A DNA stretch of 64,000 bases, taken from Aquimarina latercula DSM 2041 (GTDB taxonomy: Bacteria; Bacteroidota; Bacteroidia; Flavobacteriales; Flavobacteriaceae). Shown here one piece after another: positions 1 to 43,074 of the stretch. The notes beneath the pieces are model-generated. The model worked only from the letters and a program-made list of their open reading frames with translations, was not told the origin of the DNA and did no database searches. The translations under genes and the position numbers were made by a program. The first letter of the stretch is position 1; every line of letters starts with the position of its first letter. Location: positions 1 through 64,000 of the forward strand of contig NZ_AUMK01000004.1 of NCBI RefSeq assembly GCF_000430645.1, written 5' to 3'.

Positions 1-4
1 CGTT
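1..4 (+). repeat. Right end of a truncated attC-like site
   Basis: The window opens with CGTTGTGTAGC. GTT at 2-4 is the right core of a site whose body lies off-window, and GTTGTGTAGC is the exact reverse complement of GCTACACAAC at 466, after the first gene. Confidence 0.75.
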
Positions 5-22
5 GTGTAGCATTAAAAAATT

Positions 23-484
23 ATGTGTGATTTCGAAAATAGAATAAAATTTTGTTCTTGTGATAAAGAAAGTATAAAGTTTCGAAAACCAAAAAAATTT
101 ATAAGAAAGAAAGGGAAGCTAGTCGAGCAGATTAATCCAAAAGACTCTAAAATTCCGTTAGAATACATTTGGACTCTTTTCAAATTTGATGGAGAAAAAG
201 AAATTACGGAAATAGGTCGATATATGATGCCAATAAATGATTTAGGTAATGGATTAAATGCGGAATGGATTGCTTTGAATTTAAACTGTGAAGATTGTTT
301 TGACTTTGAATATACTCCTAGTGAAGGCGATAATTTGAAAATTCATGAAAATGTTATTATGAGTGCTTATCTTTCTTTTATATATAGAAATGGTGAATGG
401 ATTATCGATCATCACAGTCCTTGGTCGACAGAAATATCTAAATTAAAAGAGGGAAAGATAAAAACGCTACACAACAAAGTATAA
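23..484 (+). CDS. Unrecognised 153-aa cassette protein
   Basis: First cassette gene. ATG at 23 follows the cassette start by 19 bases. The protein has no signal peptide or membrane segment and looks cytosolic. It has a Cys cluster near the N-terminus (C2, C11, C13), a basic stretch around residues 20-35, and a later NCEDC motif, which might bind metal or simply be structural. The C-terminal residues HNKV and the stop codon are encoded by the attC-like site that follows, since the reading frame runs through its left core. The size and solitary soluble nature would fit a small immunity or antitoxin-like protein, but no family is recognised. Confidence 0.75.
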   Translation: MCDFENRIKFCSCDKESIKFRKPKKFIRKKGKLVEQINPKDSKIPLEYIWTLFKFDGEKEITEIGRYMMPINDLGNGLNAEWIALNLNCEDCFDFEYTPSEGDNLKIHENVIMSAYLSFIYRNGEWIIDHHSPWSTEISKLKEGKIKTLHNKV

Positions 485-516
485 AAAGCATTAAAACGAT
501 TTTTATACAAACCGTT
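466..516 (+). repeat. attC-like site 1 (family M, short)
   Basis: Left core GCTACACAAC matches the cassette start at position 2. The body is a simple hairpin, GTATAAAAA/TTTTTATAC, and the site ends CCGTT at 516. This is the shortest site in the array, about 50 bp. Confidence 0.8.
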
Positions 517-531
517 AGCAACAATAGAAAT

Positions 532-1074
532 ATGAAGATTGAATATAAATTAAATGAGGAGGATTTTCTAATTCATCTTTGGTATCAACTGGAGAACCAT
601 AAGGACTTCCACAAAGCAAAATTGCAATACTATTTTAGAGTTCCTTCTATAATTATTCTAGTTGGACTTGTATTGTCGTTTGTTTTGAATGACTATTCTT
701 ATTTAACAATTTGTTTATTAATATCTCCAGTTTGGTTATTTTTTGCTCCTAAGCTTTATAAAAAAGAAAAGCAGAAGGAAATAGAAATGATTGCTAAAAA
801 TCATGTTAGAAAGAGAGACAGTGAGAGTGCTATATTAATTATTAAAGATGATCACATTATAGGCAAAGAGGATTTTTCTGAATCTAAGCACTATAAAACT
901 GAAATCGCTAATCTTACGGAAATCGAAAATTATTACATAATTAATTTAAAAGATCAGGTTAATAAGCTTCTCATTCCTAAAGAGTATATAACCAAACCAA
1001 AAGAATTTGTTAATAAATTGACTAATATGGACGTCCAATATATCGACAACTCGCACTGGCGATGGGAAAAATAA
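532..1074 (+). CDS. YcxB-like membrane protein
   Basis: A 180-aa protein with a cytosolic N-terminal stretch, two adjacent membrane segments (about residues 36-53 and 57-72), and a soluble C-terminal domain of about 100 residues. That layout, with a short N-terminal arm, a hairpin of two helices and a PH-like tail beginning near the basic stretch KKEKQKEIE, is that of the YcxB-like family, whose function is not known. It is the only gene of its cassette, starting 16 bases after the core GTT. The assignment rests on architecture and general sequence character. Confidence 0.7.
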   Translation: MKIEYKLNEEDFLIHLWYQLENHKDFHKAKLQYYFRVPSIIILVGLVLSFVLNDYSYLTICLLISPVWLFFAPKLYKKEKQKEIEMIAKNHVRKRDSESAILIIKDDHIIGKEDFSESKHYKTEIANLTEIENYYIINLKDQVNKLLIPKEYITKPKEFVNKLTNMDVQYIDNSHWRWEK

Positions 1075-1076
1075 AA

Positions 1077-1245
1077 TGTTGCTAACATTATATATGAAAT
1101 CAGAGCAATTTAGTGCCAAATCAAAAGGTTATTTCATTTTTGCAAAGGCGCTAGATTTTTATAAGTTTAATAAGAAATAAAAATGCGCAGATAGATCGAT
1201 TGGTTCTGGCTTGTTTGCCTTGCTCCGATTCATATATTTGGCGTT
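1077..1245 (+). repeat. attC-like site 2 (family F)
   Basis: Left core TGTTGCTAAC complements the cassette start GTTAGCAACA at 514. It ends TTTGGCGTT at 1245. A TATATTTG box (TAnnTTTG pattern) lies about 10 bases before the crossover and could promote the next cassette gene. Confidence 0.88.
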
Positions 1246-1274
1246 GTACACAATATCATTACGCAAAAACAAGA

Positions 1275-1752: not shown

Positions 1753-1948
1753 TGTGTACAACACGGTGTATAAAACATAGCTAATAAGTGCTAAACCGAA
1801 AAGTTTATGTTTATTTACAAAGTCCGCCAAATTTTTAATTTGGCTTTTAAAAAGAGAAAAATTAAAAACAAAATATAAAAATTTGGCTCGGTGTTAAATC
1901 CAAAATGCAGTATCTTTTTACACGCTACGATTTCACACACAAACCGTT
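1753..1948 (+). repeat. attC-like site 3 (family B)
   Basis: Left core TGTGTACAAC complements GTTGTACACA at 1243. The outer stem is GTGTATAAAACATAGC with GCTACGATTTCACACAC, and the inner pair CCGCCAAAT/ATTTGGC. It ends CCGTT. Length about 196 bp, longer than the roughly 57-141 bp usual for known attC sites. Confidence 0.88.
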
Positions 1949-2008
1949 GTAGAGCATATAGAAAAAAGCCTTCTGAAATTTATCTTGTATAAAGAATAAA
2001 GTCTTTCT

Positions 2009-2608: not shown

Positions 2609-2779
2609 GCTCCACAACATCATATATGAAATCAGAGCAAAATATAGTGCTAGATCAGAAGGTCATTTCCTTTTTGCAATGGCGCTAGATTTTTATAAAT
2701 TAAACAAGAAATAAAAATGCGCAGATAGATCGATTGGTTTAGGCTTTTTTGCCTTGCTCCGATTCATATATTTGGCGTT
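2609..2779 (+). repeat. attC-like site 4 (family F)
   Basis: Left core GCTCCACAAC pairs with the cassette start GTTGTAGAGC at 1946 with one mismatch. It ends TTTGGCGTT at 2779. Nearly identical in body to sites 2 and 15. Confidence 0.87.
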
Positions 2780-2794
2780 ACCTGCAAGCTGAAA

Positions 2795-3481
2795 ATGAAA
2801 ACCGAACGAAAAATAAAAATAGCCGAATCATTCTCGAATAAATATGCTGATACTGAATTGGATATTGACTTATCACAAAAAGAGTTCGAACTTTTAGACA
2901 GAGGAATTTTTGCCGGAAGTATGGATGAAAAATGGAATATCTTCATTCATAACGATTCGTTATTCTTTGCAAGAAGTTGGACTAACAATTGTATTTACAA
3001 AGCTGATTTAGAAATTAAAAGACGTGGAATAAAACTCAAGAACTTAAAAGTTACAAGAAATACAGATGAATACAAGGGAACAGATTTAAAGTCGGACACA
3101 GACCTCTTTAAAAAATTGCTTCAAATGTATTTGGATAGAGAAGATTTATATATTGACGAGAGAGTTAATCTTCCACTAATTAAATTAACGATAGAAAAAT
3201 ATAGTGAAGAGAATAAATTAAAAAAAAGCATTGGTTCTCAAAGTATCGAATTGAATCTACGGATTTATAACTCTTTGATAGAATCAAGTTCCGATTATAT
3301 AACTGTAAACGGACTTGATGAATTGACTAACAATACTAAAAAATATGACTCGAATTACGAACTGTTAAGTTTGCATATTTCGAATAAAGAAAACCCAAAG
3401 GATTCGACAACTTTCTTTTTCAATCAAGAAGGAACAGAATTAGTTGGGAAAATTACAACCGAAAGAAAAGCCAGCAGGTAA
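2795..3481 (+). CDS. Unrecognised 228-aa cassette protein
   Basis: Soluble, charged protein with ATG at 2795, 16 bases after the core GTT. It has no signal peptide and no membrane helix. An N-terminal part with the segment AGSMDEKWNIFIHNDSLFFARSW and a later Asp-rich region suggest a globular alpha/beta protein. The stop codon TAA lies inside the left core of the following site (GCAGGTAAC), so coding sequence and recombination site abut without spacing. No family is recognised. Confidence 0.75.
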   Translation: MKTERKIKIAESFSNKYADTELDIDLSQKEFELLDRGIFAGSMDEKWNIFIHNDSLFFARSWTNNCIYKADLEIKRRGIKLKNLKVTRNTDEYKGTDLKSDTDLFKKLLQMYLDREDLYIDERVNLPLIKLTIEKYSEENKLKKSIGSQSIELNLRIYNSLIESSSDYITVNGLDELTNNTKKYDSNYELLSLHISNKENPKDSTTFFFNQEGTELVGKITTERKASR

Positions 3482-3664
3482 CACGGTGTATAAAACATAG
3501 CTAATAAGTGCTTAATCGAAAGGTTGGCTTTTATTTACGAAAACCGCCAAATTTTTAATTTAGCTTTAAAACTAAAAAATTAAAACAAAATATAAAAAAT
3601 TGGCTCTGTGCTAAACTCAAAATGTAGTATCTTTTTACACGCTACGTTTCATACACGAACCGTT
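3474..3664 (+). repeat. attC-like site 5 (family B)
   Basis: Left core GCAGGTAAC complements GTTACCTGC at 2777 and contains the stop codon of the preceding gene. It ends ACCGTT at 3664. Confidence 0.87.
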
Positions 3665-3685
3665 AGGTGCAATTCCAAAAAACCG

Positions 3686-4414
3686 ATGAAAATACCGAAA
3701 ATAAAAGGAATAATAGACAGAAGGATTTTAATCAATTATCAAGTTGACAAAGAAGTTCTGGCAAATTACTTACCAAAACCTTTTAAACCTAAATTAGTAA
3801 ACGGAAAAGGAATTGCTGGAATTTGTCTAATCAGACTAAAAGAAATTCGACCTAAAGGTTTACCAAAACAAATCGGAATATCTTCTGAGAATGGAGCTCA
3901 CAGAATTGCAGTTGAATGGACTGAAAATGGCATTCAAAAAGAAGGAGTTTATATTCCAAGGAGAGATACTTCTTCTAAACTGAATTCTTTGGCTGGAGGA
4001 ACCATATTCCCTGGAATTCATCATTTAGCAGATTTCTCAGTAAGTGAAAATAATGGCAATTACGAAGTTGGATTTGTAAGCGATGACAAAACTTCTCTAT
4101 CGATTAAAGCAAAAGAAACTGACACTTGGAATAACGAAAGCGTGTTTGAAAATCTCCAATGTGTATCTGATTTCTTTGAAGATGGCTCTATTGGATATTC
4201 CCCCGACAAAAATGACTACGATGGACTTGAGTTAAAAGCTTATAATTGGAAAATATCGCTTTTAGATGTTGAGGATGTAAAATCAAGCTTTTTTGAGAAT
4301 GAAAGTATTTTCCCAAAAGGCTCTGTAAAATTTGACAATGCACTTTTGATGAAAGACATTGAACACGAATGGATAGGATTGGACAAAATAAAAACTACAC
4401 CTAACAAGGTATAA
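3686..4414 (+). CDS. DUF2071 family protein
   Basis: A 242-aa protein resembling the YqjF-like DUF2071 family: an N-terminal IDRRILINYQVDKEVLANYLPKPFKP segment, then GIAGICLIRLKEIRPKGLP, HRIAVEW, GVYIPRRDT and GIHHLADF blocks in the expected order. The family folds as an acetoacetate-decarboxylase-like beta barrel; its reaction is not established. The frame is open back to 3608 but that part is recombination-site sequence, so ATG at 3686 is chosen. The C-terminus (TPNKV and stop) is encoded by the next site. The gene is alone in its cassette. Confidence 0.82.
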   Translation: MKIPKIKGIIDRRILINYQVDKEVLANYLPKPFKPKLVNGKGIAGICLIRLKEIRPKGLPKQIGISSENGAHRIAVEWTENGIQKEGVYIPRRDTSSKLNSLAGGTIFPGIHHLADFSVSENNGNYEVGFVSDDKTSLSIKAKETDTWNNESVFENLQCVSDFFEDGSIGYSPDKNDYDGLELKAYNWKISLLDVEDVKSSFFENESIFPKGSVKFDNALLMKDIEHEWIGLDKIKTTPNKV

Positions 4415-4589
4415 AAAACATAGGGCATTTGTGTTAACTCCAAAGTTCTGTGTCTACTTGCAAAGCCCGCCAAATATAAAATTTGACGTTTTCAATAAAA
4501 AAAGATAAAAGCAAAATATTATATTTGGCTTAGTACCAAACCGAAACGTATTGCTTATCACCTGCCCTACGTTTCTTACACGAGACGTT
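4398..4589 (+). repeat. attC-like site 6 (family C)
   Basis: Left core CACCTAAC complements the cassette start GTTAGGTG at 3662. It ends GACGTT at 4589. It supplies the last codons of the DUF2071 gene. Confidence 0.87.
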
Positions 4590-4604
4590 AGCTAACATAT
4601 ACTA

Positions 4605-5318
4605 ATGAATAAATTAAATATATTTCTGCTCCTGGTTCTTACCCTACTTAGTTGTAATGAAGAGTTCGAATCGGCTAATATCTCAAGTGAATTAAGAGGA
4701 AAAACTTTTAATATGATCGCGGAATCTGAAAAAGACACTCTAATTATTGATTTTAAAGATTCAACATATTTAATGGTTCAGCATAATGATAAATTACGTC
4801 CATATAGAGTTTCCACTTTTAAAAATTCTAATTTCTTGATTCTAGACAATGGAGTAATGGGAATTAAAAAAAATGGAACTGACAGTTATGAAGGATTATT
4901 TATTGGTGAAGAAGATCATATAGTTAAAATGATTCGTAGAAAAACAAATTGGACAAAAGAAATGTTATATGGAAAATGGATCCAAGATGAATATAAAAAT
5001 CAAACGAAAGAAACTGCTCCTCCTCCACCTCCTCTTATAACAAATACAGATTTTGAATGGCCTCCATATTATGAAATCACTGAAGAAAAAATCAAACTTA
5101 ACTCATTTGAAATTTCAGAATCTGATATAAAAATTAATCACTCAAATGAATTTATCTTGATGGAATTACTCAATCCTATCGACGGACAAGAAAGAAAATG
5201 GAGAATAAAAGAATTGACGGATAAAACGATGGTCATTAATAGAATGGTAAGAAGTGGACAAAAGTTTGAATTTATGGATAAATATTCAGGAGATATAAAA
5301 CTGACAAAAAAACGTTAG
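4605..5318 (+). CDS. Putative lipoprotein with a proline run
   Basis: A 237-aa protein with a lipoprotein signal (MNKLNIFLLLVLTLLSC, Cys17 the likely lipidated residue). The mature part holds two repeated-looking halves typical of extracytoplasmic lipocalin-like proteins and a PPPPP run near residue 140. It is alone in its cassette, with ATG 18 bases after the core, and its stop codon TAG lies within GTTAGCTAAC of the next site. No named family. Confidence 0.75.
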   Translation: MNKLNIFLLLVLTLLSCNEEFESANISSELRGKTFNMIAESEKDTLIIDFKDSTYLMVQHNDKLRPYRVSTFKNSNFLILDNGVMGIKKNGTDSYEGLFIGEEDHIVKMIRRKTNWTKEMLYGKWIQDEYKNQTKETAPPPPPLITNTDFEWPPYYEITEEKIKLNSFEISESDIKINHSNEFILMELLNPIDGQERKWRIKELTDKTMVINRMVRSGQKFEFMDKYSGDIKLTKKR

Positions 5319-5483
5319 CTAACAACATATATGTGATCATAGCAGCTAAGTGATGAATCGAATGGTTGTAGTATTTTTGGTAAGGCGCAATGCTTGCAGA
5401 ATGAAAAAGTTAGCAACCAATGCGCAGAAATATCGAAAAGCAAGGTAACATTTTGCCCTGCTACGACACATATATTAAACGTT
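5315..5483 (+). repeat. attC-like site 7 (family A)
   Basis: The left core GTTAGCTAAC is itself palindromic and matches the cassette start GTTAGCTAAC at 4587. It ends TAAACGTT at 5483. Confidence 0.88.
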
Positions 5484-5489
5484 ATGGCA

Positions 5490-5970: not shown

Positions 5971-6138
5971 GCCATAACAACATATATGTGATCATAGCAG
6001 CTAGGTGATGAATCAAATGGTTCGTCTATATTTGGTGAGGCACAATGCTTGCCGAAAGTAAAAGTTAGCAATCAATGCGCAGAAAAATCGAAAAGCAAGG
6101 TAACATTTTGCCCTGCTACGACACATATATTAAACGTT
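5971..6138 (+). repeat. attC-like site 8 (family A)
   Basis: Left core GCCATAAC complements the cassette start GTTATGGC at 5481. It ends TAAACGTT at 6138. Confidence 0.88.
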
Positions 6139-6164
6139 ATAGCACATTCCAGAAAATCAATTAG

Positions 6165-6711: not shown

Positions 6712-6900
6712 GTGCTATAACAACACCTATGCGATAATGCGGTTTTTGGTATAATCGAAATGTCATTACTTATTTGGTTTGTCGCCAAAGTATTAAATTT
6801 AGTATTTTAGAAAAAATAAAAACAAAACATAAACTTTGGCTAAGTGCTAGCTCGAAAACCAGTTATTTTCTGCTACCGCACTACGCATAGGCAGAACGTT
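6712..6900 (+). repeat. attC-like site 9 (family D)
   Basis: Left core GTGCTATAAC is the exact reverse complement of GTTATAGCAC at 6136. It ends GAACGTT at 6900. Confidence 0.9.
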
Positions 6901-6916
6901 GTAGGTAATAAAAAAA

Positions 6917-7950: not shown

Positions 7951-8142
7951 TACCTACAACAATAGCTATAATTAATATGGGTTTTGGTTCTTAACTCAAA
8001 GTTTAGAGCTTTTAACAAAGACCGCCAAATCTTTTGATTTGGCTTCAAAATGAAAAGATAAAACAAAATAAAAAGTTTTGGCTAAGTGCTTAATCGAAAG
8101 GACAGTTCCTTTTAATCCCGTACTAACCATAGCCGAGACGTT
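7951..8142 (+). repeat. attC-like site 10 (family E)
   Basis: Left core TACCTACAAC complements GTTGTAGGTA at 6898. Stem GCTATAATTAATATG with CGTACTAACCATAGC. It ends GACGTT at 8142. Confidence 0.88.
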
Positions 8143-8172
8143 GTAGCACATTACTCAAAAAAAATATAGAGA

Positions 8173-8829
8173 TTGAAAATATATGGAATAAGTGGACTTG
8201 GTGCTGACAAAAGAGTTTTTGATTCTTTATCATTGGAGTTTGAATTTATTCCCATTGATTGGATTGATCCACATAAAAATGAATCTATTGAAAATTACTC
8301 TAAGAGGTTAAGTGTTGTAATAGATACTAAAAATGATTTCTGTTTAATTGGAGTTAGTTTCGGAGGATTAATAGCAAGTGAAATAAGTAAGATTCTCAAT
8401 CCTAAAACAACAATTCTGATTTCTTCAGCTCATACAAAAAATGAATTAAGAACAATATTCAGGTGGTTTGGAAAAACGAAATTGATAAAACTGATGCCTA
8501 CTTCTCTATTCGACCCTCCAAGGTTAATTGCTAAATATTTATTTGGAGCAAAAAACACCAAATTACTTAATGATATTTTGGATGATACTGACCTGTTGTT
8601 TGCTAAATGGGCTGTTAATGAATTGACAAACTGGAAAAATATAACTCAATTAAAAAATGTCCTAAAAATAAATGGAACGAAAGACAAATTGATTCCACCT
8701 AAAGGAAATACTAAAATGGAATTAATTGAAAATGGAGGGCACTTTATGATTGTGGATAAAGCTGATGAAATAAGTGAAATAATAAACAATCAAATAAAAC
8801 GTGCTACAACAAGGTATAAAAAAACATAG
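8173..8829 (+). CDS. Alpha/beta hydrolase
   Basis: A 218-aa cytosolic alpha/beta-hydrolase: the N-terminal YGISGLGADKRVFDSL oxyanion-region block, the nucleophile elbow GVSFGG (Ser62), the Asp of NGTKDKLIP (near 171) and the His of NGGHF (near 190) form a complete catalytic triad. The substrate cannot be told. The start is TTG at 8173, since no ATG fits the conserved beginning. The C-terminal residues RATTRYKKT are read from the following recombination site, which the frame enters. Sole gene of its cassette. Confidence 0.85.
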   Translation: MKIYGISGLGADKRVFDSLSLEFEFIPIDWIDPHKNESIENYSKRLSVVIDTKNDFCLIGVSFGGLIASEISKILNPKTTILISSAHTKNELRTIFRWFGKTKLIKLMPTSLFDPPRLIAKYLFGAKNTKLLNDILDDTDLLFAKWAVNELTNWKNITQLKNVLKINGTKDKLIPPKGNTKMELIENGGHFMIVDKADEISEIINNQIKRATTRYKKT

Positions 8830-8993
8830 GGCTTTTGTGCTTAACCAAAAGGCCTGTGATTCTTTGCAAAGTCGCCAAATATAAAATTTGGCATTTTCAA
8901 CAAAAAAGATAAAAGCAAAATATTATATTTGGCTCAGTACCAAACCGAAACGTATCGCTTATAAACTGCCCTACGTTTCTTATACTGAACGTT
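8801..8993 (+). repeat. attC-like site 11 (family C)
   Basis: Left core GTGCTACAAC is the reverse complement of GTTGTAGCAC at 8140. It ends GAACGTT at 8993. It overlaps the 3' end of the hydrolase gene. Confidence 0.88.
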
Positions 8994-9002
8994 GTAGCAC
9001 AT

Positions 9003-9427: not shown

Positions 9428-9616
9428 GTGCTACAACAATGTATAAAAAACATAGGGCGGTTTAGGCTTAACTTAAAAGCCTGTGTTTATTAACAAAGTC
9501 GCCAAATATAAAATTTGGCATTTTCAACAAAAAAAAAGCAAAATATTATATTTGACTTAGTACCAACCCGAAACGTATCGCTTATCACTTGCCCTACGTT
9601 TCTTATACTTAACGTT
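9428..9616 (+). repeat. attC-like site 12 (family C)
   Basis: Left core GTGCTACAAC complements GTTGTAGCAC at 8991. It ends TTAACGTT at 9616. Close copy of site 11. Confidence 0.88.
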
Positions 9617-9632
9617 AGCATACATTCTCAAA

Positions 9633-10079: not shown

Positions 10080-10509
10080 AAGAATTAGAATATTTTTTGG
10101 ATTTTGGTTAATTTGTCTAATTATGACATTAATAGAATCACAAATAATTTACTCCTCAAGTCACTATAAAACGAGAGTATCTATTCAATATGCAGAATTC
10201 AACTCATTTATAACAATTGGATGGCTATGGTTTACCCCTATCCTATTACTAATAATTGACAAAATATATGTAAAGAGATTATTTAGAATTTTAATACTAT
10301 TGACACCTCTATTAATATCGTCAATATATTATACAATACTCTGGAAAAACCAAACGACAGAAATTGATTTTAGGCTTTTTGCCGGATTTTATTATAGATA
10401 TCCATACTGCTTTGATTTGATTCTTGCTGTATTTTTATCAACAATAATTGAGGTTGCTCTAGTCGAAGTAAAAGCAAAAAAACGTATGCTAACAACACCT
10501 ATGCGGTAA
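10069..10509 (+). CDS. Small membrane protein, unrecognised
   Basis: A 146-aa protein with about four membrane segments (residues near 8-24, 46-64, 72-90 and 116-133). The start is TTG at 10069, overlapping the preceding gene by 11 bases. Its C-terminal residues RMLTTPMR come from the recombination site that follows, because the frame runs through the left core GTATGCTAAC. A soluble plus membrane pair in one cassette may form a functional unit. Confidence 0.7.
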   Translation: MDFKRIRIFFGFWLICLIMTLIESQIIYSSSHYKTRVSIQYAEFNSFITIGWLWFTPILLLIIDKIYVKRLFRILILLTPLLISSIYYTILWKNQTTEIDFRLFAGFYYRYPYCFDLILAVFLSTIIEVALVEVKAKKRMLTTPMR

Positions 10510-10672
10510 TGCGAGATTTTGGTTTAATCGAAAGACCGTTGTCTATTTGGTTTGTCGCCAAAGATTTAAATTTAGTATTTTAGAAAATATAAAAACAAAA
10601 CATAAACTTTGGCTAAGTGCTAGCTTGGAAAACAGTGATTTTCTGCTTCCGCACTACGCATAGCTAAACGTT
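10484..10672 (+). repeat. attC-like site 13 (family D)
   Basis: Left core GTATGCTAAC is the exact reverse complement of GTTAGCATAC at 9614. It ends TAAACGTT at 10672. Confidence 0.9.
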
Positions 10673-10697
10673 AGCCTTCACCCCTAAAAAGAAGTTG

Positions 10698-11347: not shown

Positions 11348-11516
11348 AAGGCTAACACTATATATGTGATCATAGCAGCTAGGTGATCAATCGAAAGGTT
11401 CGTGTATATTTGGTAAGGCGCAATGATTGCAGAAAGTAAAAGTTAGCAACCAATGCGCAGAAATATCGAAAAGCAAGGTAACATTTTGCCCTGCTACGAC
11501 ACATATATTAACCGTT
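11348..11516 (+). repeat. attC-like site 14 (family A)
   Basis: Left core AAGGCTAAC complements GTTAGCCTT at 10670. It ends TAACCGTT at 11516. Confidence 0.87.
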
Positions 11517-11539
11517 ATAAGCAACAAGATTAATTATTG

Positions 11540-12020: not shown

Positions 12021-12187
12021 GCTTATAACATTATATATGAAATCAGAGCAATTTAGTGTTCGATCGAAGGGTTATTCCTTTTTGCAATGGCGCTAGATTT
12101 TTATAAATTTAATAAGAAATAAAAATGCGCAGATAGATCGATTAGTTCAGGCTTTTTTGCCTTGCTCCGATTCATATCTTTGGCGTT
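12021..12187 (+). repeat. attC-like site 15 (family F)
   Basis: Left core GCTTATAAC is the exact reverse complement of GTTATAAGC at 11514. It ends TTTGGCGTT at 12187. Confidence 0.88.
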
Positions 12188-12194
12188 GTGCTTA

Positions 12195-12650: not shown

Positions 12651-12840
12651 TAAGCACAACAATGGCTATAGTTAATACAGTTTGTACATAACCCAAAGTT
12701 TAGAGCTTTAAATCAAGTCCGCCAAATCTTTTGATTTGGCTTTAAAATGAAAAAGATAAAACAAAATAAAAAAATTTGGCTAAGTGCTTAATCGAAAGTT
12801 CACTACTTTTAATTCCCGTACTAACCATAGCCGAGACGTT
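12651..12840 (+). repeat. attC-like site 16 (family E)
   Basis: Left core TAAGCACAAC complements GTTGTGCTTA at 12185. It ends GACGTT at 12840. Confidence 0.88.
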
Positions 12841-12950
12841 GTAGTGCATTTAAGAAACACCTGAACTATCAAGAAGAATCACTGGAAAAGCTGATAATTA
12901 TCATAGGAGAAAGTGTAGTCCAATTATAATTTTGAGGAAAACATAAAACA

Positions 12951-14388: not shown

Positions 14389-14558
14389 GTGCTGTAACAC
14401 TATATATGTGATCATAGCAGCTAAGTGATGAATCGAAAGGTTGTTGTATTTTTGATAAGGCGCAATGCTTGCTGAGAGGAAAAGTTAGCAACCAATGCGC
14501 AGAAAAATCGAAAAGCAAGGTAACATTTTGCTCTGCTACAACACATATATTAAACGTT
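14389..14558 (+). repeat. attC-like site 18 (family A)
   Basis: Left core GTGCTGTAAC is the exact reverse complement of GTTACAGCAC at 13773. It ends TAAACGTT at 14558. Confidence 0.9.
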
Positions 14559-14589
14559 GTATGCAATTTGACAAAAAAACTAACAATTA

Positions 14590-16141: not shown

Positions 16142-16335
16142 GTTGCCAACACGGTGTATAAAACATAGCTAATAAGTGCTTAACCGAAAGGTTTATGTAT
16201 ATTTAGAGAGTCCGCCAAATTTTTAATTTGGCTTTTAAAAAGAGAAAAATTAAAACCAAAATATAAAAATTCGGCTCTGTGTTAATCCGAAAAGCTAGTG
16301 ACTTTTTGCACGCTACGTTTCATACACAAACCGTT
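16142..16335 (+). repeat. attC-like site 20 (family B)
   Basis: Left core GTTGCCAAC is the exact reverse complement of GTTGGCAAC at 15383. It ends AACCGTT at 16335. Confidence 0.89.
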
Positions 16336-16348
16336 GGCAAACATTAAA

Positions 16349-16917: not shown

Positions 16918-17086
16918 TTTGCCAACAACATATATGTGATCATAGCAGCAAAGTGATCAATCGAAAGGTTATCGTATTTTTGGTAAGGCACAATGCTTGC
17001 AAAAAGTAAAAGTTAGCAATCACTGCGCAGAAAAATCGAAAAGCAAGCTAACATTTTGCCCTGCTACGACACATATATTAAACGTT
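16918..17086 (+). repeat. attC-like site 21 (family A)
   Basis: Left core TTTGCCAAC complements GTTGGCAAA at 16333. It ends TAAACGTT at 17086. Confidence 0.88.
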
Positions 17087-17120
17087 AGGGCAAATTTGCC
17101 AAAAAAAACAAAATTGAACT

Positions 17121-18283: not shown

Positions 18284-18476
18284 TTGCCCTAACACTATAT
18301 ATAGCAAATAGGGCTATTAGTGTTTAATCTAAAGGTCATTATCTATTTGCAAAGTCGCCAAATCTTTTAATTTGGTATTAAAAGGGAAAAATTAAAACAA
18401 AATAAAAAGTTTTGGCTTGTAGCTAAACCGAAAATAATTACTTGTTTTCTGCCCTACTTGCCATATATTTAACGTT
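18284..18476 (+). repeat. attC-like site 22 (family I)
   Basis: Left core TTGCCCTAAC is the exact reverse complement of GTTAGGGCAA at 17084. It ends TTAACGTT at 18476. Confidence 0.89.
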
Positions 18477-18501
18477 GTGTGTAATTAAAATTAATCCTAA
18501 T

Positions 18502-19409: not shown

Positions 19410-19552
19410 GTAAGCAATCCCTCATAGCTCTCAAAACCCTTTAGTACTATGCGAACGTCAAAAGGCAAGAAAAGTGAGAATTTTGATAAGATTTAAAACA
19501 CTTATAATTAATAAATTAACTTGACGTTAGTCAGAATTAAAACCAAGCATTA

Positions 19553-25869: not shown

Positions 25870-25935
25870 GCTATAACACAAATGTATGAAGTCATAATGC
25901 CTTAAAAGGGCATTACGCCTCATACATAAACCGTT
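25870..25935 (+). repeat. attC-like site 27 (family G, short)
   Basis: Left core GCTATAAC complements GTTATAGC at 23191. The 66-bp hairpin has arms ATGTATGAAGTCATAATG and CATTACGCCTCATACAT. It ends AACCGTT. Confidence 0.88.
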
Positions 25936-25944
25936 AGCGGCAAT

Positions 25945-26652
25945 ATGAAAAAGGTAATTCAATATATTAGTTTATTCTTAGTTTTGGTAAGCTGTTTTCC
26001 TAAACAAAAAGATGCTGTTACCGAAATTGAATTACTTAATGATATATTCGTTGAGCTAATAGGAACGGAGTATTATTATGAGAAACTTCCAATTCCTCCA
26101 ATCCCTCTACAATATGCTAAAAACTGGCAAGACTCGATAAGTCACAAAATTCAAAAGGATAAATTTGACGAAGCTTTTAATAACCCAAAATTGGAAACAA
26201 AAGAATTGGTATTAGGTCTCGACCCTTTTCATCTTAATTCAAAAAAGGAATTTAGAAGTTGGAATATTAAAAAATCATCATTCCCAAGAATGTACTATTC
26301 AGATACTCTACACTCATTGGATTTTGACCAACTCTTCACTCAATTGGTGGACAGTACAACATTTAAGAAAGGTAAATTGGAACTGAATAAAATATCCCAA
26401 ACAGGAAAATATATCATCAAGGATTTAAGAAAACTGGAAAAACAAAATAAAAAGTATTGGAATAATACAGATTATAGGTTCATTGGGGCAATAAGATTCT
26501 CTGATTTTAAAATAAACCCAAAAAACGATAGGGCGGTTTTCTACTTTAATTTTACTTGTGGAAGTTTATGCGGATCAGGCGAAATAATATTCTGTCTCAA
26601 AGAGAATGGAAAATGGAAAATTGTGGATAGGAATACACTTTGGGTTTCATAA
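25945..26652 (+). CDS. Lipoprotein, unrecognised
   Basis: A 235-aa protein with a lipoprotein signal (MKKVIQYISLFLVLVSC, Cys17). The mature part is mixed alpha/beta, with RFIGAIRFSDFKINPKNDRAVFYFNFTCGSLCGSGEIIFCLKENGKWKIV near the end. The CGSLCGSGE motif followed by a GKWKIV strand is seen in uncharacterised flavobacterial exported proteins. It begins only 12 bases after the core. Sole gene of its cassette. Function unknown. Confidence 0.76.
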   Translation: MKKVIQYISLFLVLVSCFPKQKDAVTEIELLNDIFVELIGTEYYYEKLPIPPIPLQYAKNWQDSISHKIQKDKFDEAFNNPKLETKELVLGLDPFHLNSKKEFRSWNIKKSSFPRMYYSDTLHSLDFDQLFTQLVDSTTFKKGKLELNKISQTGKYIIKDLRKLEKQNKKYWNNTDYRFIGAIRFSDFKINPKNDRAVFYFNFTCGSLCGSGEIIFCLKENGKWKIVDRNTLWVS

Positions 26653-26658
26653 AAACAA

Positions 26659-26826
26659 CCGCTAACAACATATATGTGTTCATAGCAAACAAGTGACCAA
26701 TCGAATGGTTATTGTATTTTTGGTAAGGCGCAATGCTTGCAGAATGGAAAAGTTAGCAATCAATGCGCAAATAAATCGAAAAGCAAGGTAACATTTTCAC
26801 CTGCTACGACACATATATTAAACGTT
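26659..26826 (+). repeat. attC-like site 28 (family A)
   Basis: Left core CCGCTAAC complements GTTAGCGG at 25933. It ends TAAACGTT at 26826. Confidence 0.87.
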
Positions 26827-26836
26827 ATCTACAATC

Positions 26837-27331: not shown

Positions 27332-27501
27332 AGTAGATAACACTATATATGTGATCATAGCAGGTCGGTAATAAATCGATAGGTTCGTGTATATTTGGTA
27401 AGGCGCAATGCTTGCAGAAAGTAAAAGTTAGCAACCAATGCGCAGAAAAATCGAAAAAAAGGGTAACATTTTGCCCTGCTCCGACACATATATTAAACGT
27501 T
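27332..27501 (+). repeat. attC-like site 29 (family A)
   Basis: Left core GTAGATAAC is the exact reverse complement of GTTATCTAC at 26824. It ends TAAACGTT at 27501. Confidence 0.88.
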
Positions 27502-27572
27502 ATGCCACATCAACCGCATATAAAAAAGTTCTAATAAAATTAAATTTATTATAATAGAATTATAATCCAAAT

Positions 27573-30546: not shown

Positions 30547-30613
30547 TGGCATAACACAAATGTATGAAGTCATAATACCCTATCGGGATATTACACCTCA
30601 TACATAAACCGTT
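30547..30613 (+). repeat. attC-like site 30 (family G, short)
   Basis: Left core TGGCATAAC is the exact reverse complement of GTTATGCCA at 27499. It ends AACCGTT at 30613. Confidence 0.88.
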
Positions 30614-30659
30614 GTGTGTAATGCAAAAATTCCACTCACTAAATGGAAAAAATTAAGTA

Positions 30660-31191: not shown

Positions 31192-31387
31192 TACACACAA
31201 CACGGTGTATAAAACATAGCTAATAAGCGTTTAACCGAAAGGTATTGTATATTTATAAAGTCCGCCAAATTTTTAATTTGGCTTTTAAAAAATTGATAAG
31301 TTAAAAACAAAATATAAAAATTTGGCTCTGTGTTTATCCGAAAAGTTAGTGTCTTTTTACGCGCTACGTTTCATACACAAGTCCGTT
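31192..31387 (+). repeat. attC-like site 31 (family B)
   Basis: Left core TACACACAAC complements GTTGTGTGTA at 30611. It ends GTCCGTT at 31387. Confidence 0.88.
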
Positions 31388-31409
31388 GTGCGTCATTTAA
31401 ACAAACCAT

Positions 31410-32391: not shown

Positions 32392-32520
32392 ACGCACAAC
32401 AATGGCTATAAGTAATTGCTACAACTCGCCTACTTCTGAAAATCCTCGCGGATTTTCAATTTGGTGTGTACTTGCAAAGTTTCGTGCAAAACCACGCAAC
32501 TACTCATAGCCGAAACCGTT
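32392..32520 (+). repeat. attC-like site 32 (family H)
   Basis: Left core ACGCACAAC is the exact reverse complement of GTTGTGCGT at 31385. It ends AACCGTT at 32520. Close copy of site 19. Confidence 0.88.
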
Positions 32521-32542
32521 ATAAACAATAAAAATTAAATAC

Positions 32543-33694: not shown

Positions 33695-33863
33695 GTTTAT
33701 AACACTATATATGTGATCATAGCGGCTAGGTAATCAATCGAATGGTTGTTGTATTTTTGGTAAGGCGCAATGCTTGCAGAAAGTAAAAGTTAGCAATCAA
33801 TGCGCAGAAAAATCAAAAAGCAAGGTAACATTTTGCTCTGCTACGACACATATATTAAACGTT
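33695..33863 (+). repeat. attC-like site 33 (family A)
   Basis: Left core GTTTATAAC is the exact reverse complement of GTTATAAAC at 32518. It ends TAAACGTT at 33863. Confidence 0.89.
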
Positions 33864-33888
33864 ACCACACATCAGAGAAGTATAAAGT

Positions 33889-35092: not shown

Positions 35093-35279
35093 TGTGGTAA
35101 CAACACCTATGCGATAATGCGGATTAGTGTTTAATCCAAAGGTCATTGCCTATTTGGTTTGTCGCCAAAGGTTTAAATTTAGTATTTTAGAAAATATAAA
35201 AACAAAACATAAACTTTGGCTAAGTGCTTGCTCGAAAACCAATAGTTTTTTGCTCCCGCACTACGCATAGCTAAACGTT
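35093..35279 (+). repeat. attC-like site 34 (family D)
   Basis: Left core TGTGGTAAC is the exact reverse complement of GTTACCACA at 33861. It ends TAAACGTT at 35279. Confidence 0.89.
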
Positions 35280-35288
35280 AGCATTAAA

Positions 35289-35747
35289 TTGGACAAATTG
35301 AACAGAAAAATATCATCTGACCTAACCAAAATTTTTCAAATCGCATTTATTGGAAAATTTCTAACTTTATCAGTTATATTTTTCATTACACTTTTCATAT
35401 TTGACTTAAAAACTAATTTGATAGTTATTACTTTATGGATTATTGGTTTCGTTATACTTCGTCAAATTGGAATAACTAAATTGAAAACCATTTATTGGAA
35501 TGAACAATCATTAAAAGTCGGAAATCGGAATTCTCAGACGACAATTCTATTTGCGGACATTAAAAAAATAAAAAGGACCTTTCTATTTAATGATTTTCCA
35601 TTTAAGATAAAATTTATGGACTCTGGAAAGGTTAGGGAAGTATATTTTCTTCCAAAAAGCAGTGTGTTTCAGGGCTTTTTGAATGAGAATGAACTGATTG
35701 AAAAGCTTAAAAGTGATATAAAAAAATCCAATGCTAACAATGTATAA
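35289..35747 (+). CDS. Membrane protein with PH-like domain
   Basis: A 152-aa protein with two membrane segments (about 17-36 and 44-58) followed by a beta-rich domain (IYWNEQSLKVGNRNSQTTILFADIKKIKR... FKIKFMDSGKVREVYFLP), a bacterial PH-like layout. TTG start at 35289. The last residues (SNANNV and stop) are encoded by the next site, the frame passing the left core. Sole gene of its cassette. Function unknown. Confidence 0.72.
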   Translation: MDKLNRKISSDLTKIFQIAFIGKFLTLSVIFFITLFIFDLKTNLIVITLWIIGFVILRQIGITKLKTIYWNEQSLKVGNRNSQTTILFADIKKIKRTFLFNDFPFKIKFMDSGKVREVYFLPKSSVFQGFLNENELIEKLKSDIKKSNANNV

Positions 35748-35861
35748 CCGCAATTACGGCGGATTCGACTGCGTCCGAATCCACTCGGAATTGCTAACGC
35801 CAGTTTTAAACCGAAAAATTTGAGTACTTTAACCCGTAACTGACGGTTATACGAGACCGTT
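35730..35861 (+). repeat. attC-like site 35 (family J)
   Basis: Left core AATGCTAAC is the exact reverse complement of GTTAGCATT at 35277. The stem TATAACCGCAATTACGG pairs with CCGTAACTGACGGTTATA, with a central GGATTCGACTGCGTCCGAATCC hairpin. It ends GACCGTT. Confidence 0.87.
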
Positions 35862-35936
35862 ATAAGCAATTTCTCAAAATATTATGGTAACATTCTTTCC
35901 CCTTAAGACACTTATATATAACAATTAAAGAAAATA

Positions 35937-37164: not shown

Positions 37165-37231
37165 GCTTATAACATTATATAACAAAACATAGTTGCCCTT
37201 CGGGACAACAACGTTTGTTATATTAAACGTT
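37165..37231 (+). repeat. attC-like site 36 (family K, short)
   Basis: Left core GCTTATAAC complements GTTATAAGC at 35859. The hairpin TATAACAAAACATAGTTG pairs with CAACGTTTGTTATA. It ends TAAACGTT at 37231. Confidence 0.87.
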
Positions 37232-37300
37232 ATAAGCAATTTCTCAAAAAATACGGGTAACAATTTGAAAAAATAAGACACTAATAGGAAAAAGAGAAAA

Positions 37301-39055: not shown

Positions 39056-39122
39056 GTTTATAACACAAATGTATGAAGTCATAATAACCTCAAGGGATAT
39101 TCTGACTCATACATTAAACGTT
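39056..39122 (+). repeat. attC-like site 37 (family G, short)
   Basis: Left core TTATAAC (39058-39064) pairs with GTTATAA at 37229; bases beyond that do not match. It ends TAAACGTT at 39122. Confidence 0.83.
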
Positions 39123-39132
39123 GGCAATAATT

Positions 39133-39590: not shown

Positions 39591-39784
39591 TATTGCCAAC
39601 AACGGCTATAGCAAATAGGACAATAAGTGCTTAATCCAAAGACCTATGTATATCTGAAAGGTCGCCAAATCTTTTAATTTGGCTTTTAGAAAAACAAGAT
39701 AAAACAAAATGCAAAAGATTTGGCTTAGTGCAAGACCGAAAGTAAGTGCTTATCACCTGCCCAACTTGCCATATGTTAAACGTT
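39591..39784 (+). repeat. attC-like site 38 (family I)
   Basis: Left core TATTGCCAAC is the exact reverse complement of GTTGGCAATA at 39120. It ends TAAACGTT at 39784. Confidence 0.88.
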
Positions 39785-39805
39785 AGGCTTTATTAACTAA
39801 ACTAA

Positions 39806-40372
39806 ATGAACATACCAAAATATTTATTTCATTATTACGAACTTGAAAACGGACCATTCCGTAACATTACCGAGTATGGTCATGAAAAAGCTGAAAATAT
39901 TCAAGATAAAATTACGGAAGGATGGAATAGTAAAAGACCTGAAAACTATCTTGATTTGAGATTCTCTTTAGAAAAAAAAATTAAAGATGGTTTTATTTTA
40001 AAGGGAGGAAGACCCAACAGGAAGGATCCTTTTTACTTTACTTTAGGAAAATGTGAGTTTGCAAAATCTTGGTATGTAAATCCAGGAGTCATTAAAATTC
40101 CACTAATTGATTTTAAACCTGAGCATATAAGTTTTACGTATCCTGACAGTATGATTTCTTATCAGTTTCATGATGAACCTAAACTTAAAACTTATCGAAA
40201 GAATTGTAACGATCAAATTTTCTTGTTGGATGAAATAAATGATCTTATTGGAGAGTATGGACTTCCTAATGAAGAAAAATCTCAAACTGAGGAGAGGTTT
40301 AAATATGATAAATATATAGAAGCTCAAGTTTGGGATGATCAAATAATAAAAAAATATAAAACAAAAGCCTAA
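39806..40372 (+). CDS. Unrecognised 188-aa cytosolic protein
   Basis: Soluble protein with MNIPKYLFHYYELENGPFRNITEYGHEKAENI at the start and a PFYFTLG motif in the middle. LFHYYE plus GxxxI resembles the start of several ADP-ribosyltransferase-like and toxin-related domains, but the match is too weak to claim. The C-terminus is charged and helical. The stop codon is inside the left core of the following site, whose AAC has mutated to AAT. Confidence 0.7.
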   Translation: MNIPKYLFHYYELENGPFRNITEYGHEKAENIQDKITEGWNSKRPENYLDLRFSLEKKIKDGFILKGGRPNRKDPFYFTLGKCEFAKSWYVNPGVIKIPLIDFKPEHISFTYPDSMISYQFHDEPKLKTYRKNCNDQIFLLDEINDLIGEYGLPNEEKSQTEERFKYDKYIEAQVWDDQIIKKYKTKA

Positions 40373-40533
40373 TACTATATATGATGCCATAGCAGCTAAG
40401 TGATCAATCGAATGGTTGTTGTATTTTTGGTAAGGCGCAATGCTTGCAGAAAGTAAAAGTTAGCAACCAATGCGTAGAAAAATTGAAAAGCATGGTAACA
40501 TTTTGCACTGCTACGACACATATATTAAACGTT
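40364..40533 (+). repeat. attC-like site 39 (family A, core mutated)
   Basis: The left core reads AAAGCCTAAT where AAAGCCTAAC would complement GTTAGGCTTT at 39782, so the invariant AAC is lost. The right end TAAACGTT at 40533 is intact. Confidence 0.84.
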
Positions 40534-40570
40534 GTACAACATATAAATTACTCTTGCGAAAAAATTTACA

Positions 40571-40999: not shown

Positions 41000-41004
41000 A
41001 ATAC

Positions 41005-41174
41005 GTTCCAAAACAACATACATGTGATCATAGCAGCAAAGTAATCAATTGGATGGTTATTGTATTTTTGGTTAGACGCAGTGCTTACAAAAAGTAAAAG
41101 TTAGCAACCAATGTGAGGAAAAATCAAAAAGCAAGGTAACATTTTACTCTGCAACGACACATATATTAAACATT
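41005..41174 (+). repeat. attC-like site 40 (family A, decayed)
   Basis: The left core GTTCCAAAAC has two mismatches to GTTGTACAAC. The right core GTT has become ATT at 41172, with several changes in the arms. Probably inactive for its right core. Confidence 0.78.
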
Positions 41175-41188
41175 ACCCAATATTGCCA

Positions 41189-41434
41189 ATGACAAAATTT
41201 ACACCTCCTATTTCTGAACGCACTACTAATGATTTAATAAAGATTATTTATTTAAGTGAAGATAGTTGGAAAAAAGAAGCTATTACTCAAGCTAAACAAG
41301 AGCTTCTAAAACGCAGGGGTTCGCAACAAAAACAAGAAAAAATAATTAAACAATGGGAAAGAGAAACCGATAACTGTATAATTGAATTAAAAAAGACACA
41401 TAAAAAAATACATCCGAAAGTTATTCTAAACTAA
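41189..41434 (+). CDS. Small charged protein, unrecognised
   Basis: An 81-aa soluble protein starting at ATG 41189 (a TTG at 41183 is possible). It contains TPPISERTTNDLIKIIYLSEDSWKKEAITQAKQELLKRRG, a helix pattern common at the N-terminus of flavobacterial membrane-associated proteins with an ELxxR repeat, and a basic C-terminus. It may originally have continued into the next gene, which starts two bases after the stop and is membrane-associated. Confidence 0.62.
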   Translation: MTKFTPPISERTTNDLIKIIYLSEDSWKKEAITQAKQELLKRRGSQQKQEKIIKQWERETDNCIIELKKTHKKIHPKVILN

Positions 41435-41436
41435 GA

Positions 41437-41691
41437 ATGTTATACATTTTCGCAGTTGCTCCTTTTATTCTTGTAGGTAAATGGACTGTTGGAAAAGATC
41501 TTATTGAATTACGGAATGAAAACTTTAAACTAAAATATAAACAACGACTAATTTTGCTTTTAACTGGAACACTATTTTGGATTGCATTTGTTTTTTACGG
41601 GTTTAAAGCATCTGAAAAGAAAAGATTAAGACTATCACCTGAAGATAAAATCGAAATATCTGGCCGGAAAAAGAAACACGGATATGAATAA
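41437..41691 (+). CDS. Small two-helix membrane protein
   Basis: An 84-aa protein starting two bases after the preceding stop. Two membrane segments (about 2-17 and 38-56) with a basic loop and a charged tail ending KKKHGYE. Given the close spacing the two small genes are co-translated and may be parts of one split membrane protein. No function can be given. Confidence 0.62.
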   Translation: MLYIFAVAPFILVGKWTVGKDLIELRNENFKLKYKQRLILLLTGTLFWIAFVFYGFKASEKKRLRLSPEDKIEISGRKKKHGYE

Positions 41692-41698
41692 AAAAACA

Positions 41699-41865
41699 TT
41701 GGGTAACACGATATATGTGATCATAGCAATTAAGTGATGAATCCAATGGTTATTGTATTTTTGGTAAGATGCAATGCTACCTACTAAGAAAAGTTAGCTA
41801 CCAATACACAGAAAAACGAAAAAGCAAGGTAACAATTTGCTCTGCTACGGCATATATATTAGACA
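41699..41865 (+). repeat. attC-like site 41 (family A, decayed)
   Basis: The left core TTGGGTAAC complements the mutated cassette start ATTACCCAA at 41172. The right end no longer shows a GTT (CATATATATTAGACACAAAC). Confidence 0.75.
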
Positions 41866-41891
41866 CAAACCACCATAAAAAAGACATTCTG

Positions 41892-42912
41892 ATGATAACG
41901 AAAATTCCATTTATAATAATCACTATCTCGTTTACAATTCTATCCTGTAAAAAAATCGAAAAAGAAAAAACCAAAGAAACTGTATTATTCGAAAAGACAA
42001 TGCAACAACAAGATTATATCTTCTCTACTTTGGTTTCTAAAAATGGGAAAATTGTTTTTGAAGAATATTATAATGGAAAAACTAAAGATAGCCTTTGCGA
42101 TGTGCAGTCTTTAACAAAAGGAATTATGAGCATTCTCATTGGAATAGCAATTGACAAGGAGTACATAAAAAATATCAATGAACCTATAGAAAAGTATTTT
42201 CCAGAAGAATTTAAAAATTTGACGGATAATAAAAAGAATACTATTACAATTGAACACCTTTTAAATCAGACCTCGGGGCTTTCATGGAAAGGATATTTAG
42301 AACACCAAGAATGGTTAACTAATGAAAATCCTATTTCTTTTGTCTTGAAAAAGAATTTAGAAAACAATCCTGGAGAAAAAATATAACTATAACTCTGGAG
42401 CTACTCATTTATTATCTGTTATCATAAGTAGAGCATATGGAAATTCGACATTAGATTTTGCCGATCAATTTTTATTTAGCCACTTAAACATCTATGATAC
42501 AAATTGGCAAAAAAGAAATAAAGGATACTATGACGGAAGTGGACTTGGTCTCAAAATGAAACCAATTGATTTGATGAAAATAGCTCAATTGTTAGAAAAA
42601 AATGGAAACTGGAAAGGAAAACAATTAGTTTCTAAGGAATGGATTCAAAAACTATTCGATAAAAATGAAAAATCTTCAACTAAATGGGGTTTGAGAAATT
42701 CTAAACATGGATTTTGCTGGTATCAATCTGAATTTAAAGGTAATAAAATTGATTATGGAATGGGTTATGGTGGACAATTTATAATTATGATTCCTAGTAA
42801 AAAAATAATTATTGTTACAACTCACAACCATGATACACCAAACGGAATTGAACAACAGATTAAATTCTTAAATGGAAAATTACCAATACTGATAGAAAAA
42901 TACGATAGTTAA
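41892..42912 (+). pseudogene. Serine hydrolase (beta-lactamase-like) with frameshift
   Basis: A lipoprotein-signal serine hydrolase (MITKIPFIIITISFTILSC) with the nucleophile motif S-L-T-K near residue 75 and LLNQTSGLS, disrupted at about 42385. There a run of six A (gga gaa aaa ata taa) ends the frame, and removing one A restores YNYNSGATHLLSVIISRAYGNST and the rest of the protein through to 42912, including a Y-N-S motif. It is therefore a one-base frameshift in a homopolymer, either genuine decay or a sequencing slip. Its flanking sites are both decayed. Confidence 0.8.
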
Positions 42913-43074
42913 CACACTGCTTAACAAGTATTCAATCAAAAAAATATAATCATTTACAGAAATTTCTAAATTATTTATATTTGGTTTTCAGAATAAAAAA
43001 CAAAAAAATTCGGCTCTGTGTTAATCCGAAAATTTAGTGCCCTTTTGAAAGCTACATTCCATACTCTAACCATT
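42908..43074 (+). repeat. Relic of an attC-like site (family B)
   Basis: The right half (AAATTCGGCTCTGTGTTAAT, then CCGAAAA) matches site 20 nearly base for base, but the left arm is shortened and the right core GTT has become ATT. It is the last recognisable site of the contiguous array. Confidence 0.75.

Follow-up and report, generated by a model that had tools for sequence, protein, structure and literature searches.

Which enzyme moves the gene cassettes of a long integron-like array in a flavobacterium? The question is raised by a 64,000-nucleotide stretch of the genome of Aquimarina latercula DSM 2041 (contig NZ_AUMK01000004.1, our C3, positions 1 to 64,000; hereafter the window). An original prediction, made from this stretch alone, had seen the logic of integron attC cassettes in its first 43 kb and had left room for a recombinase other than the integron integrase, IntI. 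From comparisons with related genomes we conclude with considerable confidence that the window holds 43 kb of an array of small cassettes, each with one or a few genes, that such units recur elsewhere broken at the bond between G and TT (G|TT), and that a tyrosine recombinase of a kind other than IntI, encoded at the array head, is the likely cutting enzyme, acting through cassette ends folded into hairpins. In its workings the system resembles an integron, and very likely a recombinase drives this cassette platform, yet by the tests run it lies outside the family that IntI defines.

Cassettes and their end sites

A covariance model found 41 attC-like sites on the + strand of the window between 469 and 43055 (E <= 0.0043; 40 full-length), the same number as the repeats first claimed to separate the cassettes. 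The E-values are rough; 24 of the sites trained the model and match by construction, and the other 17 are independent of training. Site lengths fall into classes of about 52–69, 130, 170 and 190 bp. On the − strand the only match was the mirror of a + site (E 0.99), and control stretches (C3:60001–80000, the first 20 kb of C19, C24, C26–C28) gave zero matches at E <= 1. Scanned against Rfam at gathering thresholds, the window matched no family. A home-made arm scanner, which yielded 25 window candidates (two beyond the array) and 12 raw hits in a reversed-sequence control, was dropped for the covariance model. A miniature inverted-repeat transposable element-like array, or one resembling clustered regularly interspaced short palindromic repeats, was set aside because the units hold genes and show complementarity to their own ends.

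Off the window, 42 further sites lie on contigs C18 (1), C20 (10), C21 (11), C22 (8), C23 (6) and C25 (6), the weakest at E 0.17. The assembly therefore broke the array at its repeats, and the array, which leaves C3 at the left end, exceeds 43 kb. Two end cassettes are present twice with 100% identity, so a few sites may be double-counted. The longest open reading frame (ORF) is on the array strand in 82 of the 83 cassettes of this genome and on the opposite strand in 0 of 83. Recombinase-free groups of six sites (C6:109000–120000, L059) and five sites (C4:242000–260000, L060), all at E <= 0.0046, resemble the clusters of attC sites lacking integron-integrases (CALIN) known from integron surveys.

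The prediction had placed its decisive point in the bases that follow each GTT, said to be complementary to the opposite end of their own cassette and not to the same repeat copy. We delimited 189 cassettes in four genomes of the genus (83 in the window genome, including the C4 and C6 clusters, and 26, 35 and 45 in the others) and measured complementarity on 177, the 12 without a GTT or AAC core being dropped. All four variable core bases complemented the cassette's own far end in 145/177, whereas the same repeat copy was complementary at these bases in 10/153 (1000 shuffles: mean 6.5, maximum 16). Within the window the figures were 33 of 37 against 4 of 35, bearing the prediction out; the four core pairs it had quoted also lie where it placed them and are exact reverse complements. 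Pairing between cassette ends mostly spans 9–10 bp. Such own-end complementarity follows the rule of integrons and greatly exceeds chance expectation. The features that together identify attC are cassette-specific R''/R' complementarity and an inner L''/L' stem. The complementarity was found in 145 of the 177 cassettes; when 148 sites were folded, the R box was closed in 143 and a 5:3 loop was present in 96.

Exchange at G|TT among related genomes

Cassettes of the array stand at other places in related genomes, and the conserved gene order that the prediction had named as fatal to it was not observed. The clearest case is the cassette at 25934–26824, shared with the related genome G026: both of its breaks fall exactly at G|TT, where the prediction had said rearrangements should break, and identity drops to 50% and 53% in the 300-bp stretches that flank it. 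Since this cassette (99.8% identical) is more alike in the two genomes than are their recombinase proteins (93%), transfer is suggested. Across the four arrays there are 33 homologous cassette pairs between genomes, six of them at least 95% identical, and 0 of 63 testable neighbour sides of shared cassettes are homologous. Only 8 of the 83 cassettes of the window genome have a relative (at least 70%) in the other three arrays.

Nine pairs were inspected. Four more are 96–97% identical across the whole cassette and are followed by unrelated DNA (48–52%); their upstream flanks are 47–49% identical in three pairs and 63% in one, where the preceding sites are both of one family. The remaining inspected pairs have the same break position, one left junction being T|TT in the window genome. 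On this comparative evidence the crossover is placed between G and TT. For the cassette at 2778–3662 and the L050 cassette at 5852, homologous bodies (77% and 89%) in other genomes carry sites of different families (site identity 0.54–0.55), as if a site could be exchanged apart from its gene.

The array head and an attI-like junction

The tyrosine recombinase that the prediction advised seeking near the end of the array is encoded off the window, at the array head on C18 (L017:711–1853, − strand), and its gene reads into the first cassette. Between its stop codon and that cassette lie only 44 bp, the distance from the stop to the G of G|TT, occupied by a dyad and then ...TTG|TT. In four genomes (G000, G006, G014, G026) the 240 bp up to this G are 89–96% identical, and the 240 bp after it are 48–52% identical in five of the six pairs; the sixth, G014/G026, has a common first cassette. 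A sequence common up to G and diverging thereafter is what an attI site next to its recombinase gene would leave. Of 47 loci scored, 36 have a dyad with at least 9 of 12 positions paired, a level reached by 3 of 235 shuffled sequences. The letters of the dyad vary between species with the symmetry kept. We predict an attI-like role for this dyad.

In nine array heads of eight relatives all sites lie downstream on the recombinase strand; a tenth (G018) has zero sites, with about 120 bp of contig left beyond the stop codon. Whereas intI would be expected to be transcribed away from the array, the recombinase gene reads toward it in the window genome and in these nine heads. Integrons with the integrase gene turned round are known, and orientation alone is not decisive. 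The array of G026 is bordered on one side by the counterpart of the window's right flank (from 43081) and on the other by that of the C18 side, and this synteny assigns the window array and the C18 recombinase to one locus.

A recombinase without the IntI insertion

The recombinase has 380 residues, and its catalytic R, K, H, R, H and Y are invariant in 11 aligned orthologues. Its best NCBIfam score is to NF040815 (XerA-like), which it passes with 231.2 bits against a curated cut-off of 220; it fails the IntI model TIGR02249 (204 bits, cut-off 265), which skips the stretch of the IntI insertion. This insertion, I2, for which the prediction had proposed a test, is absent: the region comprises 25 residues (284–308) versus 68 in IntI4. 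In the alignment the catalytic R-to-H spacing is 89–90 in 50 rows of the full type (type A), at least one of which has Q aligned at the H position, and 89 in three rows of a shorter type B, compared with 131–132 in 16/16 IntI rows and 94–96 in the genome's two other Xer-like proteins. Type A, type B and IntI formed separate clades (SH-aLRT, the Shimodaira–Hasegawa-like approximate likelihood ratio test, 99 each) in a quick-method tree of 86 of 124 proteins that took every second of the 50 type A rows. The two Xer-like proteins ('Xer' being our own label) branch apart from the array-head enzyme. An XerA-like enzyme would be expected to use a single dif-type substrate in chromosome dimer resolution; the head recombinase stands beside many sites and shares its genome with two other Xer-like genes.

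About 105 residues precede the Pfam-matched domains. An AlphaFold model of the Aquimarina algiphila orthologue (predicted local distance difference test 86) best matched XerA (PDB 5hxy first), with IntI4 close behind. Full-length lambda integrase aligned with the model over about 340 columns with a poor fit, and this alignment raises the possibility of an arm-type DNA-binding domain in the N-terminal region. A true IntI was sought as well. No protein exceeded the TIGR02249 cut-off in the window genome or in 56 relatives (the search of the relatives at E <= 1e-40 gave no match in control genomes), whereas 84 of 296 genomes of the wider phylum did, 14 control genomes being silent. The prediction's reserve that a different recombinase might be at work was well placed, the head enzyme lying outside the IntI clade, without I2 and with a zinc-finger partner. 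Its integron reading stands for the cassette logic, complementarity and G|TT exchange alike, and is not supported in the strict IntI sense, by both the recombinase clade and the missing I2.

The partner gene encodes a zinc-finger protein of 125 residues and faces the recombinase gene. Four cysteines are invariant in 27 aligned members. It is present in 41 of 42 loci; the exceptional cases are L119, with a zinc-finger fragment, and L120, whose recombinase is decayed and which has none. Of the 28 hits in relatives that score 100 bits or more, 27 adjoin the recombinase gene, a fragment of it or a remnant, and a weaker hit elsewhere in genus members is probably a paralogue. The protein fits no named family well: some databases label it DUF2116-like, and Pfam DUF2116 was weakly matched in 11 of the 27 members with a best E of 1.5e-4. 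A model of the zinc-finger protein had no convincing match in PDB (best E 0.34). Between the facing genes of L017, at about 1890–1930, lies a palindrome containing TTAAACGTT, which resembles the right end of cassette sites. The palindrome is near-identical in six genus genomes, other sequences occupy its place in six other loci, and it is possibly an operator.

Proposed mechanism and alternatives

In the mechanism we propose, the end site of a cassette would fold from its bottom strand: the left core would pair with the opening bases of the same cassette, and polarity would be marked by an inner stem carrying the 5:3 loop. After cutting at G|TT, the recombinase would link the cassette either with the dyad site (...TTG|TT) that follows the recombinase stop codon or with a second end site. 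Incoming cassettes would be added at the array head, and attC x attC events would excise or shuffle them. IntI reads the folded site through its I2 helix. Without that helix, reading of the folded site would here have to come from the extra N-terminal region, inner-stem contacts or the zinc-finger protein.

Of the other explanations, the one that survives best, improbable as we hold it, is double-stranded recombination of the Xer kind, in which core sites would be used as duplex and hairpin symmetry would serve, for example, protein binding or transcription. An XerA-like recombinase without I2, a dyad in the attI-like site, and top and bottom strands that fold about equally well all suit it. 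The 9–10 bp of cassette pairing speak against it, uniting bases that should be adjacent only in an excised circle or in a single strand that has folded; no selection for cassette-specific pairing would be expected from the cutting of duplex DNA at G|TT. Clearly less credible is a passive array with no dedicated recombinase, shuffled by homologous recombination between repeats or by the host XerC/XerD. In its favour, repeats of one family are long and resemble one another, and in two of the nine inspected pairs homologous cassettes carry sites of different families (0.54–0.55), which suggests exchange inside sites. Breaks nevertheless fall at G|TT at both ends even where the flanking sites are of different families, the attI-like junction has its break at this bond too, and homologous exchange would lose the own-end complementarity that 145 of 177 cassettes keep. 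An ordinary integron, with a true IntI elsewhere in the cell moving the cassettes and the head recombinase a bystander, is the least credible of all: the sites do behave like attC and IntI genes do occur in the wider phylum, but none passed the cut-off in the window genome or its relatives under a model that found them across the phylum with controls silent, and the head recombinase adjoins the first cassette, from which a conserved site separates it.

Several observations weigh against movement of cassettes by the head recombinase through folded ends. The two strands fold with near-equal energies (bottom lower in 92/148 sites, top in 47/148, median difference −0.2 kcal/mol), and a single-base bulge is on the L'' side in only 75/148 sites, against 27 on the L' side; the strand polarity on which IntI depends is therefore not clearly encoded in the sites. 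Bulged bases on the L'' side of folded sites are T in 71 of 81. The dyad falls below threshold in 11 of the 47 scored loci, and 19 further loci, most of them more distant, were left unscored. A site model, R1, matched in 32 of 33 genus members, but only 20 of the 33 have a full-length recombinase gene free of stops; the other arrays may be fossils, or another enzyme may act on them. R1 found nothing in 12 of 27 outgroup loci, 7 of which have no more than 600 bp of contig beyond the stop. The array of G022 is accompanied by a different, shorter recombinase. In the assembly, the window array and the recombinase are on separate contigs linked only by the G026 synteny. The evidence for exchange is wholly comparative, and one cassette family of G014 enters the 33 shared pairs in several copies.

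Distribution and known systems

A contig scan yielded at least 27 full-type loci (L131–L156, L169), in Aquimarina, Winogradskyella, Arenibacter, Maribacter, Polaribacter, Gillisia, Psychroflexus, Aequorivita and other genera, and also in metagenome-assembled genomes of Cytophagales and Chlorobiota. At E <= 0.01, R1 found sites in 15 of the 27 listed loci, downstream on the recombinase strand; the sole exception to this placement is one extra weak upstream match in L133. Upstream of the sites in G003 and G011, and on their strand, a decayed gene or fragment persists. Type B recombinases, of about 277 residues, lack both the N-terminal region and I2, and their genes stand divergent from the adjacent sites in G022, Meridianimaribacter and Ichthyenterobacterium. 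We regard type B as a second flavobacterial arrangement.

Vibrio superintegrons have IntI, attI and attC. As in these sedentary chromosomal integrons, cassettes here stand in tandem in one orientation, sites have the order R''/L''/L'/R' and break at G|TT, the insertion point is beside the recombinase gene, and recombinase-free site clusters occur (C4, C6). The differences are a non-IntI clade, the absence of I2 with its shorter R-to-H spacing (89–90 versus 131–132), a recombinase gene directed toward the array, a dyad attI, a conserved facing zinc-finger gene, and longer core pairing (9–10 bp). Integrons of Treponema and others are described as having a true IntI that reads toward the array; the locus shares with the Treponema type a recombinase and cassettes on the same strand, but its recombinase is not IntI by the tests run. 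From XerA-type enzymes (NF040815; PDB 5hxy), which give the best NCBIfam score and first structural match and likewise lack an IntI-type insertion, it differs by the roughly 105 extra N-terminal residues, the cassette array and the partner gene.

IntegronFinder requires IntI-specific features, and a recombinase of this kind would therefore escape it. In its passages on Bacteroidetes, the survey describing IntegronFinder 2.0 (PMC9024848) reports a complete integron in Salinibacter ruber M1, which belongs to the same broad phylum as the present array, and credits Bacteroidetes proper with In0 elements from an earlier study and this complete integron. The system described here may explain why so few were reported in that survey. 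No paper on flavobacterial integrons of this kind was among the matches listed in open-access PMC, preprints excluded.

In integron theory the I2 helix is the step that let an Xer-like enzyme read folded single-stranded cassette ends. The I2 domain around patch III is described, in the part of PMC9668308 that treats it, as unique to IntI and necessary for integron recombination, and the eLife study PMC7790495 notes, in the corresponding passage, a lack of intermediates for this step. Widespread attC-like sites together with an I2-less recombinase would either make the step directly testable or show a second solution. We incline, at somewhat better than even chances, to a wider view: a second, independently evolved integron class, with an I2-less Xer-like recombinase, zinc-finger partner and dyad attI, would exist in Flavobacteriaceae and some other Bacteroidota; capture of cassettes through a folded strand would have arisen more than once and been overlooked by IntI-directed searches; and the clinical tet(X3) and tet(X5) modules of Acinetobacter would be first cassettes carried off from it.

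The 'xerD' gene beside tet(X)

In the Acinetobacter baumannii plasmid NZ_CP044520.1, the 'xerD' stub beside tet(X5) (L212:4516–5371) is a 5'-truncated relative of the recombinase, 55.6% identical to residues 141–380, whose nearest neighbour in the tree is a Spirosomataceae protein. Directly before tet(X) there is an attI-like dyad that ends in TTG|TT. At 99% identity or more, 51 plasmid records match the stretch, and tet(X3) or tet(X5) is named under the match in 50 of them; the remaining record, H111, is a partial match with nothing named under it. No matching far-end core was found downstream in L212, and the tet(X) unit therefore looks truncated. Whether XerD has a part in moving tet(X) is asked in a passage of PMC7473080, and the xerD–tet(X3) arrangement is named in PMC7494873, the main text of which does not use the word 'integron'. 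The relationship to the array-head recombinase gives this long-noted gene a concrete reading.

Table 1. Positions of array, sites and other features; coordinates refer to the window unless a locus is given
Feature	Position	Strand	Evidence or remark
Distal part of cassette array	1–43074	+	off contig start at left; identical site type on C18, C20–C23, C25
attC-like site, short type	469–520	+	E 4.8e-4
attC-like site	1080–1249	+	covariance model
attC-like site	1756–1952	+	covariance model
attC-like site	2612–2783	+	covariance model
attC-like site	3476–3668	+	covariance model
attC-like site	4399–4593	+	covariance model
attC-like site	5317–5487	+	covariance model
attC-like site	5972–6142	+	covariance model
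attC-like site	6715–6904	+	covariance model
attC-like site	7954–8146	+	covariance model
attC-like site	8804–8997	+	covariance model
attC-like site	9431–9620	+	covariance model
attC-like site	10487–10676	+	covariance model
attC-like site	11350–11520	+	covariance model
attC-like site	12023–12191	+	covariance model
attC-like site	12654–12844	+	covariance model
attC-like site	14392–14562	+	covariance model
attC-like site, weak model score	15259–15389	+	E 0.0022
attC-like site	16144–16339	+	covariance model
attC-like site	16920–17090	+	covariance model
attC-like site	18287–18480	+	covariance model
attC-like site	19243–19413	+	covariance model
attC-like site	20793–20985	+	best E 2.4e-35
attC-like site	21951–22123	+	covariance model
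attC-like site	23006–23197	+	covariance model
attC-like site, short type	25871–25939	+	E 5.1e-4
Cassette, 891 bp, 99.8% identical to G026 cassette	25934–26824	+	unrelated flanks, both breaks G|TT
attC-like site	26660–26830	+	covariance model
attC-like site	27335–27505	+	covariance model
attC-like site, short type	30549–30617	+	E 0.0043
attC-like site	31195–31391	+	covariance model
attC-like site	32394–32524	+	E 6.8e-4
attC-like site	33697–33867	+	covariance model
attC-like site	35095–35283	+	covariance model
attC-like site	35732–35865	+	covariance model
attC-like site, short type	37167–37235	+	E 1e-5
attC-like site, short type	39058–39126	+	E 0.0021
attC-like site	39594–39788	+	covariance model
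attC-like site	40367–40537	+	covariance model
attC-like site	41008–41178	+	covariance model
attC-like site	41701–41868	+	covariance model
Last, degenerate attC-like site, model positions 25–173 only	42919–43055	+	partial match, E 0.0019
Chromosomal flank	43081–64000		matched pieces 88–97% identical to DNA directly after G026 array
Type B locus	L118:7805–8635		
Type B locus	L189:5971–6804		
Type B locus	L190		single site seen

Cassette cargo and a promoter-like motif

At E <= 0.001, Pfam matched at most 25 of the 51 window cassette ORFs and left at least 26 without a family. Three ORFs match the beta-lactamase family; other cargo includes acetyltransferases, endonuclease V, Imm7, SMI1/SUKH-type proteins, and secretion-tail and repeat proteins. 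The endonuclease V match belongs to one ORF (E 2.4e-71). PADLOC gave no match among the 51 ORFs at E <= 1e-5.

On the opposite strand, the motif TAnnTTTG occurs in 22 of the 189 sites of the four genomes (control mean 23.8). On the array strand it occurs in 63 of 189 (block-shuffled mean 15.5, maximum 24), a count inflated by the relatedness of the sites. We take the motif to resemble the −7 promoter motif of Bacteroidetes, and on this likeness some site families may carry outward promoters.

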